From Bacillota bacterium (GTDB lineage Bacteria; Bacillota_C; Negativicutes; JAEYSJ01), in assembly GCA_023434855.1 (NCBI GenBank), contig JAEYSJ010000268.1, positions 1 through 23,554 on the forward strand: a DNA stretch of 23,554 bases, given 5' to 3'. The notes beneath the pieces were generated by a model. The model ran no database searches, had not been told where the DNA came from, and saw only the letters and a list, made by a program, of their open reading frames with translations. The position numbers were made by a program, and so were the translations under genes. Shown here piece by piece: positions 151-19,812 of the stretch; within the stretch, counting starts at the first letter, position 1; every line of letters begins with the position of its first letter.

Positions 151-3100
151 GGCTCCTGCTCCCCTTTCCCGGTCAACCCCGCCATAATAGCCGTATCATT
201 CGTTTTCGCCAGCCGATGGTAGTCATTTTCCGGCAACAACCGGTCAAACTGGCATACCGGTCTATAGGGGCAATAACTGCATGGCGTCTGCTGTTCCAGC
301 ATGTACGGTCTGATGGCGACATCACCAGATATTATCTCACAGCCTGTCTTTATAAGTGTTTGTCCTACATGGTCCAGCAGCAGGCTGAATTCTTCCGCTG
401 TCTTAATATATGCCTGACAATTACGCCAAAAAGTATTGTCTTTACTAAGTGCTATTTTGAGAAATTCTGAACGGCCTTCAATGGAACTGTCAAGCAGGCG
501 GACAACATCAGGTTCAGCCAATGCCCAGCCAGGCATCTTCAGCATACTGTTGAGTCTTTGAACAACTTGTTCCGGGCTTAGCGGTAATTCAGAAGATATG
601 CTGGGATTTTTAATAAAATAATACAACACACCTGCTGCCTGACAATCAGTCTGGCCCACAAGCTCTATCGCCAGGTTTTGCGCCACCAGCAAATATGTCA
701 ACAATTGCAGCTTAAGACCATGATAAACTTCCGGCAGTCTAAGCCAGGCTCCGCCTGACTTGTAGTCAATAATTAGCAGATATTTCCGTCCATTAAACTC
801 AGCTACATCCAGCCGGTCAATCTGGCCGCCCAATTCAAGAGTTATACCATTTTCCAGTCCGTAAGCCAGTGGTGGCAGCGCATCCTTGCCCCAGCCGAAA
901 GCTTTTTCCATCGCCAAAGGCTTAAACCGGCTTACCCGGTCAAATTCCGCCAGCCGGGTTACAGCACGGACAATTGTATGTTCCAGCCGCCTGGACATAT
1001 GCTGGTATTGGGCAGAACTTAACAAGATTTCATTCTGCAGCCTTGGAGCCAATTCTCCGGCAATTTCACTGCAAATTTCCCCAAGTTCCCCCGGTGTGAC
1101 ACTGCCCCACTCCCGTCCTTCAGACCGCATCCGTTCACCAAAATCTTTCATAGCAGCATGCAGGAATTGTCCCAAATCAGGCGCCTGCAGACGAAAAACC
1201 TGTCGTTCTTTCAAACTGAGACCATAACAGGCAAAATGTTTGAACGGACACGCCCGAAAGCTTTCAAAACGGGTAACACTGCCTTTAAGCCTGTCACTAC
1301 GTGTATATAGGCGGCAGGCCAGCTCCTTAGGCAAATTTTCCACAATATTTTTATGAAACAAACCGGCCAGACACTGCTGCAGATACCTGGTAAGCCCTGG
1401 CTGCCGCAGCGCCCAGTTGTATACATCCCACCAGGCCTGGCTAATATCCTTGCCGCTCTTGTAAAGGCGCATTCCGGCGGCTAATGCGGAAATACTGCGG
1501 CGGGGATGAACCAAATACTCCTGTTCGGCACCCGGAGCCGGTTCGGCCGGCAGCGATTTGACGACTGCCCCACCTGCCAGTTCTTTTAGCCTGTCAATAA
1601 TCAGGGAAGGACTAAGTCCTTTCCCTTCCTCATCAGCCAGCGGGTAACTCACCCATAGGTAATTGCTCGCTCTGGTTAAAGCAGTATAAATTAAAAACTG
1701 TTCAGCAAAAGAATCAGCTGCCGACCCGGGAGCCAGTTCCAGCCCTTGTGCCGCTATCTGACTTCTTTCGGCGTCGGTGAGTATTCCCTCACCCCGGCCA
1801 TGCATTGGTAATACGCCGTCATTGACACCTGGAACATAAACACCCCGTAGGTTGGCAATCGTTGTTTGTTCAAGAGGTGATACCGTAACATAGTCAAGGC
1901 CAGGTGGTATGAGACTAAGCTTTAAGCCTTCCAGGCCGTCATTGATAATAGCCGCATAGTCTGGCAAATCCAGTGCCTGGTCCCCGCATGTTTCTACCAC
2001 TTGTTCCAAAAGCTGTACTACACTGCTCCATATTTGTTTATGTTCCCGTGCCTGCGCCAAATCACCGGCCTGTTCAGCTTTTATTGCCCATTCTTCCAGT
2101 TTTTCCGGTACTTGAAGTTCTGTCAGCAGATCATATAAAGCAACCGTTATTCCGCGGGCATTTTCGGCGCTAACAGCTTTTTGCTCAAAGGAAATTAGCG
2201 GTGCAGTCGCTGTAAAGCGTATATCGTTAATCGCAGCAAGCTGTAACTGCCGCGTCTCGTCTAGTTCCTGTTCCTCTCCTAATGACCAGCGGCGCACAAA
2301 AGACCAATGCTGGGGGTTCGTCCAGCGGAATCCATGGATACCAAACTCTACCACATAGTTCTCCAATTGGTCAATTTCATCCCTCTGTACTGGAAATAAA
2401 TCTGTTTTTAAACAACGAAAAACCGGCTCATAACTCCAGTGCTCGGTTACCACTTCCAATGCCGAACGCAACAATTCCGCCAACGGGTGGTGCACCGGCT
2501 GCCGTTGCTGATCGCTAAAATAAGGTATGTCAAAATCGGCCAATACTGTTTCCACAACATCGGCGTAAGCTGCCGTATCCCTTATTAAAATAGCAATATC
2601 CCGCCAACGATAACCCTTATCGCGACACAGACTGATTATATCCCTGGCCATGCCCTCAACTTCTACCCGGCGATTTGCCGCTTCCACTATCACCAGTCCC
2701 TGCGGGTCATACTTCCACCCAAGCGGCGGAAAAATAAAAAACTGCCGCTCAAGATGCTGCAGCAACCCACTATCCGCAAATCGCCAGCACTCGCGCAACT
2801 CAGTTTCCTGTACTTCCAACGAAACCTGAGCAGCCAGATCCAACAGCTTACGGCGGGTATCCCACTGGCGGTGAAAAAGGTCTGTCTCGTAACTGTGCTC
2901 CGGGGCATCCGCTTCAGTTAAACACAGCGTAATATTCACTGCTGCCGCCGTGTGCATAATTTCCTGCAATACCGCAAATTCGCGGGGATTAAACCAACTA
3001 AAACCATCTACCCAGACTTCCGCTCCTTGTATAAGGGTAGACTGAGAAATTTTATCCACCAATAGATTTAGATAATCTTCCGGGTCAGTGTAGCGAAATT

Positions 3101-3608
3101 GCAAAAAGCTTTCAAATTCATGATACAACAAATACAAATCATGTAGTTTATCCGAAAGCGAGGCATTGTCAACTTGGGACCTTACTGCCATCAGTTTTTC
3201 CGGAGATATGGCGTAGGTTTTAAATTCCCGGATCATGCCTGCCAATGTATCGGCGAAACTGCGCTGCTTAGCTGCCCGGTGAAACATTCTTAGCTCTTCC
3301 TGCCGTTGAATCAACAGACGGCTCAGTACCAGCCGTTTGCCCAGTTCAGTAATATGAGGCCGTACTGCACCGCCTGTTTCCAGCAATACCCGGTGGGCCA
3401 GCCGTCTAAACCCAAATACATTCGCTCTGGCAAAACCGCTGATTTCTGGTGTGGCGGCCAATTCCCGCTCTATTTGGAAAGTGGCATGCTCCGGCAAAAT
3501 AAGAATCAGCGGCGGTCCTTCGGGAGAAGTTAACAGCCGTTCACGAATTTCATCCAGACAGTGGTGGGTCTTTCCTGTGCCGGCCCGGCCCAGTATTAGT
3601 TTAAGCAT
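147..3608 (-). CDS. addB: AddB helicase-nuclease subunit with Fe-S cluster
   Basis: A 1153-residue protein, full length for AddB/RexB (about 1150-1170). The N-terminus has a Walker A loop GRAGTGKT at residues 7-14. The C-terminal RecB-family nuclease shows GGQIDRLD followed by IIDYKSG with Asp948 and Lys950. The four cysteines of the family's 4Fe-4S staple are present: Cys787 alone, then Cys1110, Cys1113 and Cys1119 (CxxC-x5-C), the spacing expected of AddB. The enzyme works with AddA at double-strand ends in the cytoplasm. The start is supported by GGAAGGAG 10 nt upstream of the ATG. It lies 16 nt after the TPR-protein gene and overlaps addA by 4 nt, so all belong to one operon. No frameshift or missing catalytic residue was seen. 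Confidence 0.97.
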
Positions 3609-3624
3609 TACCGGTACTCCTTCC

Positions 3625-4773
3625 CTACCTACGCCGTTTCTTTTTATCTTTTTTCTTCTGGGGAGCTTGCTTATTTACCTGGGCCAGCGGCCTCAGCGCA
3701 CTGCGGTTGAGTACCATTGCCTGTTCACTTAAAGACCACAGCTTAAGCTCACGCTTAGCTTGGGGTATTTCTTCCCTTCTTTTGCCCATGTATAGTTCTG
3801 CTGCCGCCAGAAGGGTATTCGGTTTATCCGGATAAATATTGAGAGCAACCATCCTGTCAACCGCCAGGCTGGTATTCTTATCTAATCCCGGTTCCCTGGC
3901 GGCTGCCAATTCTTCTTCTAAAGGAATAACAGGCACACTTTTGCCTGTTTGAACATTTATTTCAAACAACATTTGCATCCCGCTGACCAGCATATTCCTT
4001 AAAGCATCGGCCGGCATATGCTGATAACGGTGAGCACAGGCCAATGCCTGGCGAAGGTGCAGGGCGGCAGTCTCCAATTGCCCAATTTCAAATAAAATGC
4101 CCCCTAAAGAATAATGTGACTCCAACTGACCGCTGTCGATTGTCACTGCCTGCTCAAAAGCCGTTGCCGCTAAGTCGGCACGCTTGCCTTTTAAATAGGC
4201 ATTTCCCAGCCTGTTCCAAATAAATGCCTCCTGTGGTGTTTGCGACAGCTTTTTTAGATAGTGCTCTTCAGCATCTGTACCCCATTGGGGACAATAACCG
4301 CCATCGATAAGAATGTTCCCCACCATAAACCGCTGCGCCGTATTCTCCAATCCGATGGAGGGGGCGATCATTGCTGTTGTGAAGCCCATCATCAGCATGT
4401 TTTTCCCTGCTCCGACGAACTCCCAACCAGCCGCAGCATTACAATGTTTACAGCGGAAATAGCCGCTTATTTGAATGAAATCTGCTATATCTACCCGTGC
4501 CGCATTCTGTGAGGAATGTTCATAATATTGTTTTACGTCCATCACCGCTGTGCCCAAATCATAATCACCGGCTTTGCCGCAGGTGGTACAGCGAAGACGA
4601 TAAATATTTTTGGGAACCCGTTCAATAACCTTATCCATATTTTTCGCCACAATCTTGCCATATGTCCCAGGCAGGGCACCAGCATTAGGCCGCGGCGAAA
4701 CCTCCTTAACATCCTGCCCGGTAATGATACTTATCAATAACGGATTAATGCCGTATTTTTGATATTGTGCCAT
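3625..4773 (-). CDS. TPR protein with two CxxC pairs, embedded in the sbcDC-addBA operon
   Basis: A 382-residue protein that I cannot assign to a named family. Two Cys pairs, Cys62/Cys65 (RCTTCG) and Cys108/Cys111 (FRCKHCN), would suit one zinc site formed by two knuckles. Residues 183-250 hold two clear TPR units (FIWNRLGNAYLKGKRADLAATAFEQAV and the next, LESHYSLGGILFEIGQ). The last ten residues are almost all Lys/Arg (KKKDKKKRRR), suggesting nucleic-acid or acidic-surface contact. There is no signal peptide; residues 122-140 are hydrophobic but short. The ribosome site AAAGGA precedes the ATG. It starts 36 nt after sbcC and ends 16 nt before addB, so it is co-transcribed with both break-processing nucleases. 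A scaffold or accessory role in end processing is inference from context only. Confidence 0.85.
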   Translation of the reverse strand: MAQYQKYGINPLLISIITGQDVKEVSPRPNAGALPGTYGKIVAKNMDKVIERVPKNIYRLRCTTCGKAGDYDLGTAVMDVKQYYEHSSQNAARVDIADFIQISGYFRCKHCNAAAGWEFVGAGKNMLMMGFTTAMIAPSIGLENTAQRFMVGNILIDGGYCPQWGTDAEEHYLKKLSQTPQEAFIWNRLGNAYLKGKRADLAATAFEQAVTIDSGQLESHYSLGGILFEIGQLETAALHLRQALACAHRYQHMPADALRNMLVSGMQMLFEINVQTGKSVPVIPLEEELAAAREPGLDKNTSLAVDRMVALNIYPDKPNTLLAAAELYMGKRREEIPQAKRELKLWSLSEQAMVLNRSALRPLAQVNKQAPQKKKDKKKRRR

Positions 4774-9123: not shown

Positions 9124-9353
9124 GAGATACGGCTAACCAGAGGGATTATTATTAAATTCTTTATCGCCCGTGATATATACCAGGCTGTTCTACGCCATAT
9201 CCTCGACACACTCCCCCCGGTTCAAAAAATGTAGCATAAACTTGCAGATTGCAATACTTCATATTTCTTGCGAGATGTAAATCGAGCCGTCCCACTCTGT
9301 GTCCTCTGTGTCCTCTGTGGTTCAAAAACTCAGCTCCTACCTTCTGCCCGAGA
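9124..9353 (+). repeat. Dispersed palindromic repeat, copy 1 (degenerate)
   Basis: The intact right arm at 9292-9322 is built of CTCTGTGTC-like units ending in GTGGTTCAAAAA. It is preceded by a small hairpin at 9270-9287 (GCGAGAT / loop GTAA / ATCGAGC). The left arm is reduced: GATACGGCTAACC at about 9126-9138 joins directly to AGAGGGATTATTATT, missing roughly 20 bases found in copies 2-4. A second GGTTCAAAAA-like end at about 9219-9228 looks like the remnant of another right arm, so this site may be a composite. This repeat explains most of the 400-base gap between the 64-aa gene and sbcD. Strand is arbitrary; all four copies read the same way. Confidence 0.8.
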
Positions 9354-10870: not shown

Positions 10871-10908
10871 CAAAAACCTGCTTAGGTAATATACCAAGCA
10901 GGTTTTTC
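10871..10908. terminator. Terminator at the end of the tryptophan ECF operon
   Basis: AAAAACCTGCTT (10872-10883) pairs with AAGCAGGTTTTT (10896-10907), with an inner GGT/ACC helix. There is a T5 tract on either side. It lies about 30 bases past the trpP stop and also faces the 61-aa gene. Confidence 0.85.
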
Positions 10909-10936: not shown

Positions 10937-11521
10937 TTACTTATTCTCCTCATTTCCCGGTGCGTCTTGCTCATTAGCAAAGATTTTATATGCCGGAAAG
11001 TAGAGCAACTGAGTTATAGCCGTATTAATCACCGCTACTGTACCAACTACCGGCAGCATGCCATATAAGTAAACAGTATTAGGCAGGGAAAGCACCAGTT
11101 TAGCTATTGTGGTAAAGGTCAGGCCGCTGGCCAGTGTGCTTATCAGTGCGCAAATGGCAGGTTTTAAGTTTACCGTCCCAAACTTGAAGCTGACAGACAT
11201 GTTAACCAACAGCGCACAAGCTACTGCACCGACTGTTTCACTTATAAGATTGCCGTAAGGGAAAATTGACTTGGAAGTCGCCAGACTCACCGCACCGGCC
11301 ACTAAACCAATGCCGGCCGCCCGTCCTAAAGAGGGTTTGGTCAAAATAATTGACAGGCAATACATGGCAATAATCCAGTTAGGTGAAATACCGGCAATGC
11401 TTGGACTGACGAGCCGCAAAATGGCACCAATCGCCAGCAGCATGGCTGTAACGGCCGCCCAGCGGAATTGGCCTCCTTTACCCTTTATAACAGTTGTTCC
11501 CGGTTTTTCCATCGAATCCAT
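10937..11521 (-). CDS. trpP: TrpP-like tryptophan substrate-binding (S) component of an ECF importer
   Basis: A 194-residue integral membrane protein with about five or six hydrophobic segments (WAAVTAMLLAIGAILRLV; NWIIAMYCLSIIL; GIGLVAGAVSLATS; ISETVGAVACALLV; AICALISTLASGL; MLPVVGTVAVINTAITQLL). The order and small-residue pattern resemble YhaG/TrpP of Bacillus. It sits at the end of an operon with two ECF ATPases and EcfT, as group I S components do, behind a T-box whose specifier codon reads UGG (Trp). Tryptophan as substrate therefore rests on family likeness plus regulation. The start has GGGGAGG 8 nt upstream. A repeat copy separates it from ecfT by 307 bases, so read-through or a separate promoter is needed. 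Confidence 0.8.
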   Translation of the reverse strand: MDSMEKPGTTVIKGKGGQFRWAAVTAMLLAIGAILRLVSPSIAGISPNWIIAMYCLSIILTKPSLGRAAGIGLVAGAVSLATSKSIFPYGNLISETVGAVACALLVNMSVSFKFGTVNLKPAICALISTLASGLTFTTIAKLVLSLPNTVYLYGMLPVVGTVAVINTAITQLLYFPAYKIFANEQDAPGNEENK

Positions 11522-11588
11522 TGATCATTCCTCCCCTTTTTAAATTGTTCCTATTAAAAGATAAATTTGCAAAATATCGCGAGCTTCA

Positions 11589-11797
11589 GGGATACGACTA
11601 ACCGCAGAGGTCACAGAGGACACAGAGGGTTTTATTATTACTTTATTCCCAAGCTATGTTCCTAACCCACTGTTTTTCACTTTATCTCAATCATATTCTT
11701 ACGCGATGGATATCGCGTCGTGCCACTCCGTGTCCTCTGTGTCCTCTGTGGTTCAAAAACAATAGTCCCAAACAACCTACAGCCCGAAAAATCCATA
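11589..11797 (+). repeat. Dispersed palindromic repeat, copy 2
   Basis: Left arm 11600-11629 (AACCGCAGAGG...) and right arm 11723-11753 (ends CTCTGTGGTT) are inverted, with about three mismatches. A perfect small hairpin at 11701-11718 (ACGCGAT / GGAT / ATCGCGT) precedes the right arm. The left flank GATACGACTAACC and right flank TTCAAAAAC match the other copies. It fills the gap between ecfT and trpP. Confidence 0.88.
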
Positions 11798-11828
11798 CCT
11801 TCTGGTACTGCAATAGGCCTGAACTATT

Positions 11829-12512
11829 TTATATGTAAAATCGAGTCAGCAATAAACCCGTGGTTGCGAGGACAGTCCCTGCCAGAACCACATAGTCACA
11901 AACCGCCAGTGCCACGTCGCCACAAAACGCATGTTGCCGCACACTGCCGCCAAAACCCCGGAGTTCAAGACTCATGGACATCGTTTCCGACCGTCTGACT
12001 GCTTTAAGCACCAAAGGCTCGACAATTGCCAGATATCCTGTCATTCGTTTTATCACATTACCCCGCGGCGCGTAGCCACGGCATGCCTGAGCCTCCCGCA
12101 CCACCTTACTTTCAGCCAGGAAGTCTGGAATAAACCGTAAAGCGGCCGTAAACATAAAAGCATATTCCGGAGGGATATTACACTGATTTACTAGCGCTGC
12201 CGACAAATCCTGCGCCCGTGTGGCCGCCAGCAGCATAACAAAGGGCATGGTCATGGCTATCATCCTGATACCGCCTGCTATAGCCAGATTCAGGTCCATG
12301 CCCAGAACATATTGCAGGCCAACCATGGATAATGCTACAATCCCCAGGCTTAATGCCGCTTTATATGTCTTTCGTTGCACCCCGGTTAATAAAACTGCCA
12401 CAAATTGACCGAATACCAATAAAGCTAGTGCAGGGATGGACTGCAGCAGCAATCCCCAGGCTGATATGACCAGCGTCAATATCAATTTAGTTAGCGGTGC
12501 AATCCTCAGCAT
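11829..12512 (-). CDS. EcfT/CbiQ-type transmembrane coupling protein
   Basis: A 227-residue CbiQ-family protein. The start chosen is the ATG at 12512 (MLRIAPLTKLILTLVISAWG), which has AAGGAGGT 7 nt upstream; a longer reading from 12584 lacks such a site and would intrude further into the upstream ATPase. The N-terminal half is hydrophobic (ALALLVFGQFVAVLL; GIVALSMVGLQYVL; TMPFVMLLAAT). The C-terminal coupling region carries the two Arg motifs that dock on the ATPases, AQACRGYAPRG and LELRGFG. It overlaps the second ATPase gene by 26 nt. It links the ATPase pair to the S component in the cytoplasmic membrane. Confidence 0.93.
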   Translation of the reverse strand: MLRIAPLTKLILTLVISAWGLLLQSIPALALLVFGQFVAVLLTGVQRKTYKAALSLGIVALSMVGLQYVLGMDLNLAIAGGIRMIAMTMPFVMLLAATRAQDLSAALVNQCNIPPEYAFMFTAALRFIPDFLAESKVVREAQACRGYAPRGNVIKRMTGYLAIVEPLVLKAVRRSETMSMSLELRGFGGSVRQHAFCGDVALAVCDYVVLAGTVLATTGLLLTRFYI

Positions 12513-13332
12513 TAATTTTACCTCCTTGCAAAATTCCAGCCAAACACTGGCATAATTCCTCAATTTGCAGTGTTGGCGGCACATTATATTTCGCCATTTC
12601 CCGGGAAATTCTGACCGGTACCGGTTCTACAAGTCCCCAGCCGTCAATAAGCCGGCCACCGGCAAACAACTCACTTACTTGACCGTCAAAAACTTTGCTA
12701 CCTTCGGCCATAACAATTACCCGGGGCACATACCGGACCAGTATATCCATATCATGAGTTATCAGAATGATTGTCATGCCCTGGGCATTCAGATCAACCA
12801 GCAGGTTTAAAAGTTTTTCCCGTTCCCTGGCATCCTGACCGCTGGTCGGCTCATCCAGTATCAGCATTTCCGGTTGCATTGCCAAAGCAGATGCAATTGC
12901 TACCCGCTGTTTCTGGCCTTTAGATAAAGCCCGCGGGTAAGCCTCTGCCAATCCGGTTAGTCCGGTATGGGCCAACGCCAGTTCTACAGCCTGCGCCTTT
13001 TGTACAGCTGTAAAACCTAATTGTTCAGGGCCGTAAGCCACCTCTTGAGCTACCGTGTCGCGAAATATCTGCCTGTCAGGATTCTGAAAAACATACCCGA
13101 TATGCCTGGCGATATCCGCAACAGTATGTTTTTTAGTATTAACCCCATTAAATATAATCTGACCCTCTGCCGGTTTTAGCAAAGACATGGCCAGTTTAGT
13201 AAGCGTAGTCTTACCGCTGCCGTTACGCCCAACTATTGCTACAAATTCACCCTTTTGAACCTTAAGGGAAACATTTTTTAAAATTGGTCTGCCTGGCGAA
13301 TAATTAAAACTGACTTCCGCAAATTCAAGCAC
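12487..13332 (-). CDS. ECF transporter ATPase, second copy
   Basis: A 281-residue ABC ATPase. A GTG at 13332 is the preferred start, with GGAGG 9 nt upstream; it overlaps the first ATPase's stop by 8 nt. It shows Walker A GRNGSGKTT, Q-loop YVFQNPDRQIF, signature LSKGQKQRVAIA (Lys replacing the usual Gly), Walker B MLILDEPTSG and the H-loop LITHD. The C-terminal extension after residue ~215 is typical of EcfA proteins. It forms a heterodimer with the first ATPase and drives substrate release by the S component (family knowledge). Confidence 0.94.
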   Translation of the reverse strand: MLEFAEVSFNYSPGRPILKNVSLKVQKGEFVAIVGRNGSGKTTLTKLAMSLLKPAEGQIIFNGVNTKKHTVADIARHIGYVFQNPDRQIFRDTVAQEVAYGPEQLGFTAVQKAQAVELALAHTGLTGLAEAYPRALSKGQKQRVAIASALAMQPEMLILDEPTSGQDAREREKLLNLLVDLNAQGMTIILITHDMDILVRYVPRVIVMAEGSKVFDGQVSELFAGGRLIDGWGLVEPVPVRISREMAKYNVPPTLQIEELCQCLAGILQGGKINAEDCTAN

Positions 13333-14197
13333 TTTTATCAGCCTCCGTTTCTTTCCGGGACAAATGTCGCCGCAACTCACTTATTGCCTCCTCTTCATTC
13401 TTCCAGTCGGCGAACTCAACTCCATTAGCTGCCTCCAGGGATAGCTTCAATTGCCATAATGGCGGCATGGCCTCGTAAAAGATTTGCTGCTGCCACATAA
13501 ACCGTAAAACTTCACCTGGTGTTCCTTCTTTGGCCAGCCTGCCGTCAGATAACAAGATGAATTGATCGGCATAGGCTAACACTTTTGCCAAGTGATGCTC
13601 TACCACAATAACAGTCATACCATATTGCCTGTTAAGATCTCCCAGCAAAGCATAAAGTGATGCGGCCCCTTCCGGATCAAGAGCCGAAGACGGTTCATCC
13701 AATACCAGGATGTCCGGCCTTACTGCCAGCGCACCGGCAATAGCCAAACGCTGTTTCTGCCCGCCGGACAAAGCGGAAGTCTCGGACTTTTCCAACCCGC
13801 TAAGACCGGTCATCTCCAATGCTGCTTTGACCCGCTGGACAATTTCGTCAACAGGCATATCCCTGGTTTCCAGGCCAAAGGCAATCTCTTCTTCAACTGT
13901 CATCGCCACTAGCTGGCTTTCATAATCTTCCAGAACAGTACCCACTTTCATCGCCAGTTGGCTCATACTGCTTTCCAATATATTTATTCTGTCCACCGTC
14001 ACTGTTCCGCCCATCCTGCCGCCGAAATAGTGGGGGACAACCCCGGCAACAGCCATGCACAACGTAGTTTTACCTGCTCCGCCCGGCCCGGCAACAACCG
14101 CGAAAGCACCTCTGTTGATGACTAAATTTATTCCAGTGAGCGCTTCGCCTTTTTGTGGATACGCGTAAGAAAAATCGCGAAAAATTACCGCTGCCAT
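13325..14197 (-). CDS. ECF transporter ATPase, first copy
   Basis: A 290-residue ABC ATPase, the first gene of the ECF operon. Start ATG at 14197 with GGGAGGG 7 nt upstream. It has Walker A GPGGAGKTT, signature ALSGGQKQRLAIAGALA, Walker B ILVLDEPSSALD and H-loop VVEHHL. The Q-loop reads VLEDYESQL, where the usual Gln is Glu. The C-terminal part (from about residue 225) is the EcfA-specific extension. It is divergent from the second ATPase, as expected of a heterodimeric pair. The leader upstream contains repeat copy 3 and the T-box. Confidence 0.94.
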   Translation of the reverse strand: MAAVIFRDFSYAYPQKGEALTGINLVINRGAFAVVAGPGGAGKTTLCMAVAGVVPHYFGGRMGGTVTVDRINILESSMSQLAMKVGTVLEDYESQLVAMTVEEEIAFGLETRDMPVDEIVQRVKAALEMTGLSGLEKSETSALSGGQKQRLAIAGALAVRPDILVLDEPSSALDPEGAASLYALLGDLNRQYGMTVIVVEHHLAKVLAYADQFILLSDGRLAKEGTPGEVLRFMWQQQIFYEAMPPLWQLKLSLEAANGVEFADWKNEEEAISELRRHLSRKETEADKSA

Positions 14198-14283
14198 GCT
14201 TTGCCCTCCCAGTAGTTATTTCAAGAAGCTGGTTCAAAATGCTCTCAATTAGAGAAATGTTACCGTGTCTTTAAACATTAAAA

Positions 14284-14505
14284 CATTCTAACCGCGGAGT
14301 ACACGGAGGACACGGAGGGATTTTATTAATATTCTTTTATCCCCTCTATGTCCTTAACTTAACGTTACCTTTATTCAGAGTCATTACCAATAATTCCATT
14401 GTGCGAATGTATATTCGCACCGTTCCACTCTGTGTACTCCGTGTACTCCGCGGTTCAAAAAACACTAGCCTAAGCTACCGATTACCAAACAACTTATACT
14501 TTTAA
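14284..14505 (+). repeat. Dispersed palindromic repeat, copy 3
   Basis: Left arm 14290-14319 and right arm 14425-14455 are inverted; the outer 19 bases (AACCGCGGAGTACACGGAG) pair perfectly. A perfect 8-bp hairpin, GTGCGAAT / GTAT / ATTCGCAC, occupies 14401-14420. The right flank ends with AACTTATACTTT, shared with copy 4. It lies between the T-box terminator and the first ATPase gene, so it is transcribed in the operon leader. Confidence 0.9.
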
Positions 14506-14520
14506 GACTCCAAAATAATA

Positions 14521-14824
14521 AAAACCCCTCATCCCTATATGTAGGGACGAGGGGTTAACCCGCGGTGCCACCCTGCTTGACTGCCAAGGCAGTCCTGCTT
14601 GACAAGGCACGGGATGAAAAACATTATCCGATGCCTGCTTCCTGATAACGGCGGAAGATCCCCGACAGTTCCTACCCCTGTTTGTCATTAACAGGCTCAG
14701 GCTGTATCTCCCAGGCCCATTCCACATACTGAGCAATGCCAAACTCCCACTGTCATTGGCTCGCTGTAAATCTCTGGCTATGTGTACTCTTCCTGGTCAT
14801 TGACGATAAAAATATGGTAAATTT
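14521..14824 (-). promoter_or_regulatory. T-box riboswitch, predicted tRNA-Trp sensing
   Basis: On the minus strand the T-box core AGGGTGGCACCGCG is present in full at 14574-14561. Stem I is seen at the 5' end: CCAGG closes with CCTGG, the loop side AAGAGTA faces GAATGG, and CACATA pairs with TATGTG. The specifier position after GAA reads TGG (14719-14717), i.e. tryptophan, followed by a purine. The acceptor-pairing base in TGGC is C, which suits a G73 discriminator as in tRNA-Trp. A terminator of about 14 bp (AACCCCTC... with ...GAGGGGTT) ending in TTTTTATTATTTT lies at 14521-14556. Uncharged tRNA-Trp should favour antitermination and expression of the ECF genes. Confidence 0.95.
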
Positions 14825-14830
14825 GTATAG

Positions 14831-14860
14831 AGTATATCAAATTATAAGAACATTTGTCAA
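14831..14860 (-). promoter_or_regulatory. Sigma-A promoter of the T-box/ECF operon
   Basis: Perfect -35 TTGACA (14860-14855), 18-bp spacer, -10 TATACT (14836-14831) on the minus strand. Transcription would start near 14824, just before stem I. Confidence 0.85.
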
Positions 14861-19647: not shown

Positions 19648-19812
19648 GGATACGGCTAACCACGGAGTACGCGGAGGACACAGAGGGTTATTATCAATAC
19701 TCTTATTCCCCGCGAGATAAATATCGAGCCGTTCCACTCCGTGTACTCCGCGTACTCCGTGGTTCAAAAATACTAGCACCAACTGGCTACGACTAAGAAC
19801 TTATACTTTCCG
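19648..19812 (+). repeat. Dispersed palindromic repeat, copy 4 (compact form)
   Basis: Left arm 19658-19687 and right arm 19734-19764 are inverted; the outer 19 bases (AACCACGGAGTACGCGGAG) pair perfectly. The small hairpin at 19712-19729 (GCGAGAT / AAAT / ATCGAGC) follows the left arm almost directly, so the internal spacer of copies 2 and 3 is absent. Flanks GGATACGGCTAACC and AACTTATACTTT mark the ends. It lies between ald and the alr terminator. Confidence 0.9.

Follow-up and report, generated by a model that had tools for sequence, protein, structure and literature searches.

The stretch of DNA analysed here, hereafter the window, comprises 23,554 nucleotides of contig JAEYSJ010000268.1 from a Bacillota bacterium and carries on its minus strand an operon that very probably encodes a dedicated (group I) energy-coupling factor (ECF) importer for tryptophan controlled by tRNA-Trp. 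A T-box leader with a tryptophan specifier, placed behind a sigma-A type promoter, is followed by the genes for two ECF ATPases (EcfA1 and EcfA2), the transmembrane coupling subunit EcfT and, last, a substrate-specific (S) component of the TrpP family; the importer would probably be made only when the tryptophan-carrying tRNA is empty. An earlier, sequence-only reading had given the operon the same place, which the open reading frame (ORF) list and the sequence confirm from promoter to trpP, and had interpreted it in the same way. As a whole that reading is supported, with two qualifications concerning the quality of the promoter and an outdated premise about Bacillus.

The leader RNA and the genes behind it

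The leader is built from the following elements.

14831–14860, minus strand: promoter of the sigma-A type, TTGACA-18-TATACT, its -10 box preceded by TG (11 of 12 consensus bases)
14540–14809, minus strand: T-box leader (RF00230, 96 bits against a gathering score of 93, E 3.1e-20, model positions 1–219 complete)
14717–14719, minus strand: specifier codon UGG (Trp) in the context GAA-UGG-G-CC (covariance alignment and sequence)
14567–14570, minus strand: UGGC in the antiterminator bulge, able to pair with G73-C-C-A of tRNA-Trp (alignment and sequence)
14523–14556, minus strand: intrinsic terminator, overlapping and competing with the antiterminator (-27.2 kcal/mol, z -6.3)

The T-box is the only Rfam match above its gathering score found by cmscan in the window. 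In the covariance alignment, the 3' side of the specifier loop is occupied by GAA-UGG-G-CC, which agrees with the codon read earlier and rules out a different codon at this position. The proposal that the acceptor-pairing C of UGGC suits a G73 discriminator is likewise backed by 10 related genomes, in which 19 tRNA-Trp genes were found, each with G73; the window organism's own gene does not belong to this set. The promoter, with its -35 box at 14860–14855, a spacer of 18 nucleotides and its -10 box at 14836–14831, is present as claimed, but it is near-perfect rather than perfect. None of 200 shuffled sequences folded as stably as the terminator (14556–14523).

From this anatomy, the gene content, the predicted fold of the S component and the conservation of both the ECF linkage and the UGG context, we infer that the operon responds to tRNA-Trp and that its product transports tryptophan. 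Transcription would start at the sigma-A promoter and, as long as charged tRNA-Trp is plentiful, the leader would fold the terminator and stop it. Once uncharged tRNA-Trp rises, its CCA anticodon would pair with UGG and its G73-CCA end with UGGC, whereupon the antiterminator would form and the importer would be made. In the finished transporter, EcfA1 and EcfA2 would hydrolyse ATP, EcfT would couple this to transport, and TrpP would bind tryptophan in the membrane.

The genes, in order of transcription, and the putative end of the operon are listed below.

13325–14197, minus strand: ecfA1, ECF ATPase (PF00005 ABC_tran, 86.1 bits, cut-off 25; groups with EcfA1 of other TrpP operons)
12487–13332, minus strand: ecfA2, ECF ATPase (ABC_tran, 122.9 bits, cut-off 25; GTG start picked by eye)
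11829–12512, minus strand: ecfT, transmembrane coupling subunit (PF02361 CbiQ/EcfT, 66.2 bits, cut-off 25; ATG at 12512 picked by eye)
10937–11521, minus strand: trpP, S component of the TrpP family (PF17099, 43.1 bits, cut-off 27.2; predicted fold)
10872–10904, minus strand: likely operon terminator, a stem-loop followed by a T run 3' of trpP (read by eye; absent from the terminator scan output)

The mechanical ORF of ecfA2 opens at 13380, the GTG at 13332, preceded by GGAGG, being the likelier start by eye, and that of ecfT begins at 12584. The ORFs and their Pfam matches, all above cut-off, bear out the gene content read earlier and amount to two EcfA, one EcfT and one S gene, as in group I ECF transporters. 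Two results weigh against the assignment, namely that the NCBIfam ECF models shown for EcfA1, EcfA2 and EcfT all score under their cut-offs and that TrpP has no NCBIfam match. Since the arrangement is conserved in relatives, its occurrence by chance is unlikely.

The best Pfam profile of the S component is TrpP, as the sequence-only reading had expected, and a vitamin-specific S component is ruled out, as no such profile appeared in the Pfam or NCBIfam scans; with the UGG specifier, neither of the two outcomes named beforehand as refuting that reading came about. The predicted model has the six-helix S-component fold, and helix 1 contains the AxxxA motif described as an S-component feature (PMC11109136) in the form A26-MLL-A30. 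Across 133 distinct TrpP domains, position 30 is Ala in 129, and position 26 is Ala in 69, Thr in 58, Ser in 4 and Val in 2. A phmmer search of TrpP against PDB sequences found nothing. The same protein shows a weak match to DUF975 (PF06161), under the cut-off of that profile.

Two elements resembling miniature inverted-repeat transposable elements (MITEs) lie inside the operon.

14280–14462, minus strand: MITE-like inverted-repeat element between the T-box terminator and ecfA1 (repeat comparison)
11590–11760, minus strand: MITE-like inverted-repeat element between ecfT and trpP (repeat comparison; fold -63.4 kcal/mol, z -5.9)

The family has 28-nucleotide arms and is also represented outside the operon by a third copy (19648–19771) and a partial copy (9265–9329). 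Both elements, and especially the second with its very stable predicted fold, could mean that the T-box and the genes are real while the operon has become defunct in this organism. Yet none of the four reading frames is interrupted, nothing about the ATPase motifs looks abnormal on inspection by eye, and the copies elsewhere in the window point to common local repeats, so that a defunct operon is hardly to be expected.

TrpP loci in the class of Sporomusa ovata

When genome contigs were scanned with the window TrpP as a single protein, relatives with 60–68% identity were found in five Sporomusa species (L001–L005), four of which have a T-box over the Rfam cut-off directly 5' of trpP (85.2 bits in the fifth). 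The 7-kb flanks of these five loci contain no relative of the window's ECF proteins, which looked at first like evidence against a dedicated importer; the sample was therefore widened to the class. Profile searches with PF17099 in 200 genomes of the class of S. ovata matched in 136, in 135 of them over the cut-off; of the 142 rows, 2 below the cut-off were left out, and the remaining 140 loci were taken with flanks of up to 5 kb where the contig allowed. Genes were counted as beside trpP when on the same strand with gaps of less than 700 bases.

By this criterion, 128 of the 140 loci have ECF genes beside trpP, and 125 of these show the full set of A1, A2 and T. This is strong comparative evidence for a functional link between TrpP and ECF modules, to which the sequence-only reading had tied TrpP-like proteins. 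Solo trpP genes account for the other 12 loci, two of which (L083 and L118) lie at contig ends, leaving 10 clear cases. Two TrpP operons contain fused genes of another kind than those described below: in L059, a 575-residue ATPase ORF (2493–4220) replaces the two ecfA genes behind a T-box that carries UGG, and in L073 a 475-residue ORF matches both EcfT and EcfA2.

The T-box antiterminator motif was counted in 141 loci, that is, the 140 plus the window. It occurs upstream of 87, all of which have a correctly sided GAATGG, with C as the acceptor-pairing base in 65 and U in 22. Leaving out the window, the motif precedes 47 of the 78 loci with adjacent ECF genes, 28 of the 50 fused loci described below and 11 of the 12 solo genes. 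No family was found by an Rfam scan of 6 of the 54 loci without the motif, and no nameable shared regulatory motif emerged when the upstream regions of 34 of the 54 were aligned in six groups. As a control, GAATGG occurs in 4 of the 30 T-boxes reported for S. ovata. Three of these lie before ecfA1A2T, trpP and trpD; the fourth, before a TrpB-like gene, lacks the strict specifier context.

The presence of trpD and a TrpB-like gene in this set is relevant to another reading, in which the importer carries a precursor or relative of tryptophan (indole, anthranilate or another aromatic compound) and the T-box does no more than make it part of the regulon for tryptophan starvation. The enzymes concerned would use anthranilate or indole, and a T-box signals need rather than substrate. 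Against this stands the behaviour of Bacillus subtilis, where deletion of trpP confers resistance to 5-fluorotryptophan and slows strain 168 on limiting tryptophan, although not an auxotroph of strain 3610 (PMC13170310). Import of a precursor is thus unlikely, and tryptophan would be the substrate. The two transporter T-boxes of S. ovata (L205, L212) have UGGC, forming a C-G73 pair, and the T-boxes of trpD and the TrpB-like gene (L215, L220) have UGGU, forming a U-G73 wobble. This difference might provide graded induction; it comes from one genome, and U is also found in the 22 of 87 transporter T-boxes mentioned above.

Split and fused TrpP-ECF loci

Six genomes with solo trpP (G001, G003, G004, G005, G137 and G054) also carry an ecfA1-ecfA2-ecfT operon that has no adjoining S gene and is preceded by a separate UGG/UGGC T-box; the solo trpP of the same genome likewise follows a UGG T-box of its own. 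In five of the six genomes, the S-less operon (L184–L188) shares its strand with trpP at a distance of about 9 to 19 kb; in G054 (L192), the two are far apart. The T-box of the S-less operon exceeds the Rfam cut-off in four (G001, G003, G004 and G137), falls just under it in G005 (91.9 bits) and is recognised by motif only in G054. Four further genomes (G002, G039, G064 and G088) possess a trpP-ecfA1A2T operon plus a solo trpP. That a motor lacking an S gene keeps tryptophan-tRNA control would be best explained if it works in trans with the solo TrpP.

The low number of EcfT genes (3 each in G002, G003 and G137), together with the presence of other S families, had suggested that the tryptophan module is the sole non-cobalt module of Sporomusa and hence shared. 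This idea fell with a separate rplQ-ecfA1-ecfA2-ecfT-truA module in S. silvacetica (G003; L265, L268), and G137 and G002 contain a matching high-scoring ATPase of the rplQ-truA type. Such a shared-type module has the same kinds of subunits as the window operon; its ATPases in S. silvacetica, encoded at a separate locus, pass the NCBIfam ECF_ATPase_1 and ECF_ATPase_2 cut-offs, whereas those of the window stay below them.

The rplQ-truA module also speaks for a rival reading, in which TrpP either draws on a shared (group II) ECF module or works alone, and the adjoining ECF genes serve another S component. The clear solo trpP genes and the assignment of B. subtilis TrpP to the S proteins that general ECF subunits serve (PMC11487621) point in the same direction. 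They are set against the 128 loci with ECF genes beside trpP, the 50 fusions of TrpP to EcfA1, the UGG T-box of the S-less module in all six split genomes and the ORF list of the window's operon, in which no S gene other than trpP was seen. Powering by a shared module, or none, is thus very unlikely for the window, and the neighbouring ECF genes would form a dedicated motor for TrpP.

In 50 of the 140 loci (among L044–L183, e.g., L044, L108, L113 and L172), the TrpP domain is N-terminal to EcfA1 in a single protein of 424–552 residues. Of the 45 distinct fused sequences, 44 share one clade of the TrpP tree (support 0.93); L044 is a further case. Among 24 aligned fusions, no variation occurs in the Walker A lysine, the SGGQ signature or the Walker B DEP residues, and the predicted structure of one fusion (mean pLDDT, the predicted local distance difference test, 84.3) combines six helices with a low-confidence linker (about residues 185–205) and a strand-rich ATPase part. 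Such fusions are common in the protein database, where the TrpP portion of a single fusion, used as query, returned 260 proteins, with both PF17099 and PF00005 in all 120 listed; the named sources include Veillonella and Megasphaera. One source labels several plain TrpP proteins as ATP-binding ECF proteins, perhaps owing to the fusions.

Ancestry and relation to known systems

FastTree places the window TrpP as sister to the Sporomusa group's 10 solo TrpP genes (0.91), a grouping recovered by IQ-TREE with 44 sequences chosen from the 133 distinct ones (Shimodaira–Hasegawa-like approximate likelihood-ratio test, SH-aLRT, 91.9; ultrafast bootstrap, UFBoot, 88). Its EcfA2 groups with that of L074 (0.975) and its EcfT with those of L073, L074 and L109 (0.93), all from trpP-first operons; EcfA1 has a sister support of just 0.199, and branches are long. 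The operon may thus have lost a first-position trpP and captured a solo one, a scenario which is only partly supported, and the identities of the T-box leader (80–86%) do not decide between an ECF-type and a trpP-type ancestry. The alanine dehydrogenase encoded in the window is at most 84% identical to genes of the class of S. ovata (matches in 91 of 200 genomes).

The premise that Bacillus TrpP stands alone is out of date. In B. subtilis, trpP is one of six S-protein genes, all of which have been deleted, and tryptophan is named among the ECF substrates (PMC11487621); an annotation table describes the protein as “Substrate-specific component TrpP of tryptophan ECF transporter” (PMC12021177), and for one B. 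subtilis strain, tryptophan (TrpP) is counted under the ECF class transporters (PMC12733254). B. subtilis TrpP (YhaG), which functions in tryptophan import, matches PF17099 over the cut-off as a control, as does the window protein. The two differ in that the B. subtilis gene is controlled by the trp RNA-binding attenuation protein (TRAP; PMC13170310), whereas the window gene has a T-box, and in that general ECF subunits serve several S proteins in B. subtilis (PMC11487621), whereas the module of the window is probably a dedicated one. Clostridioides difficile CD1988, a “putative tryptophan transport protein” comparable by description rather than by family, also has an upstream T-box, but its table row names no ECF genes (PMC11477304, Table 2). 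Tryptophan uptake by TrpX of Streptococcus suis is likewise under a T-box, although TrpX is a putative substrate-binding protein and not a membrane S component (PMC9382623). The group I thiamine transporter YkoEDC combines a dedicated module and an S component under an RNA switch, an organisation that the window operon probably shares; it differs in its substrate, in its THI-box and in that its two ATPases are fused together, whereas fusions in the TrpP family join the S component to an ATPase (PMC5037267).

The novelty claimed earlier was therefore overstated, as TrpP had already been listed as an ECF S protein and the C. difficile T-box had been listed as well; the kind of system is already known, and the probably dedicated, T-box-controlled operon is the new addition. 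Neither a T-box-controlled ecfA1A2T operon, nor the split form, nor TrpP-EcfA1 fusions were met among the titles and abstract openings covered by the literature searches, outside which most subscription papers lie; for the latter reason, and because ECF subunits are said to be “sometimes fused into multidomain proteins” (PMC12075633), an earlier mention of the fusions is possible. There is about an even chance that the TrpP family spans all ECF organisations: a general module in Bacillus (from the papers cited), a dedicated operon in the window, a split form with matching UGG T-boxes in Sporomusa and the EcfA1 fusion.

The fusions are relevant to the question of whether an S component has to detach from the motor in the course of transport. 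Fixed versus dynamic subunit composition is at the heart of competing models, with comparison to group I considered of interest (PMC12075633): ATP-driven dissociation is described for a group II system (PMC12075633), association and dissociation are regarded as essential in group II (PMC7755397), and a different model has been put forward for a group I biotin system (PMC10368641). A natural S-EcfA1 fusion cannot fully dissociate, so that its transport activity, if shown, would decide the question for the TrpP family; with an S component tethered in nature, the question becomes directly testable. The operon in the window, in turn, offers a testable case of an amino acid that would be imported by a vitamin-type ECF machine under direct tRNA control, its substrate being predicted from both the RNA and the protein.

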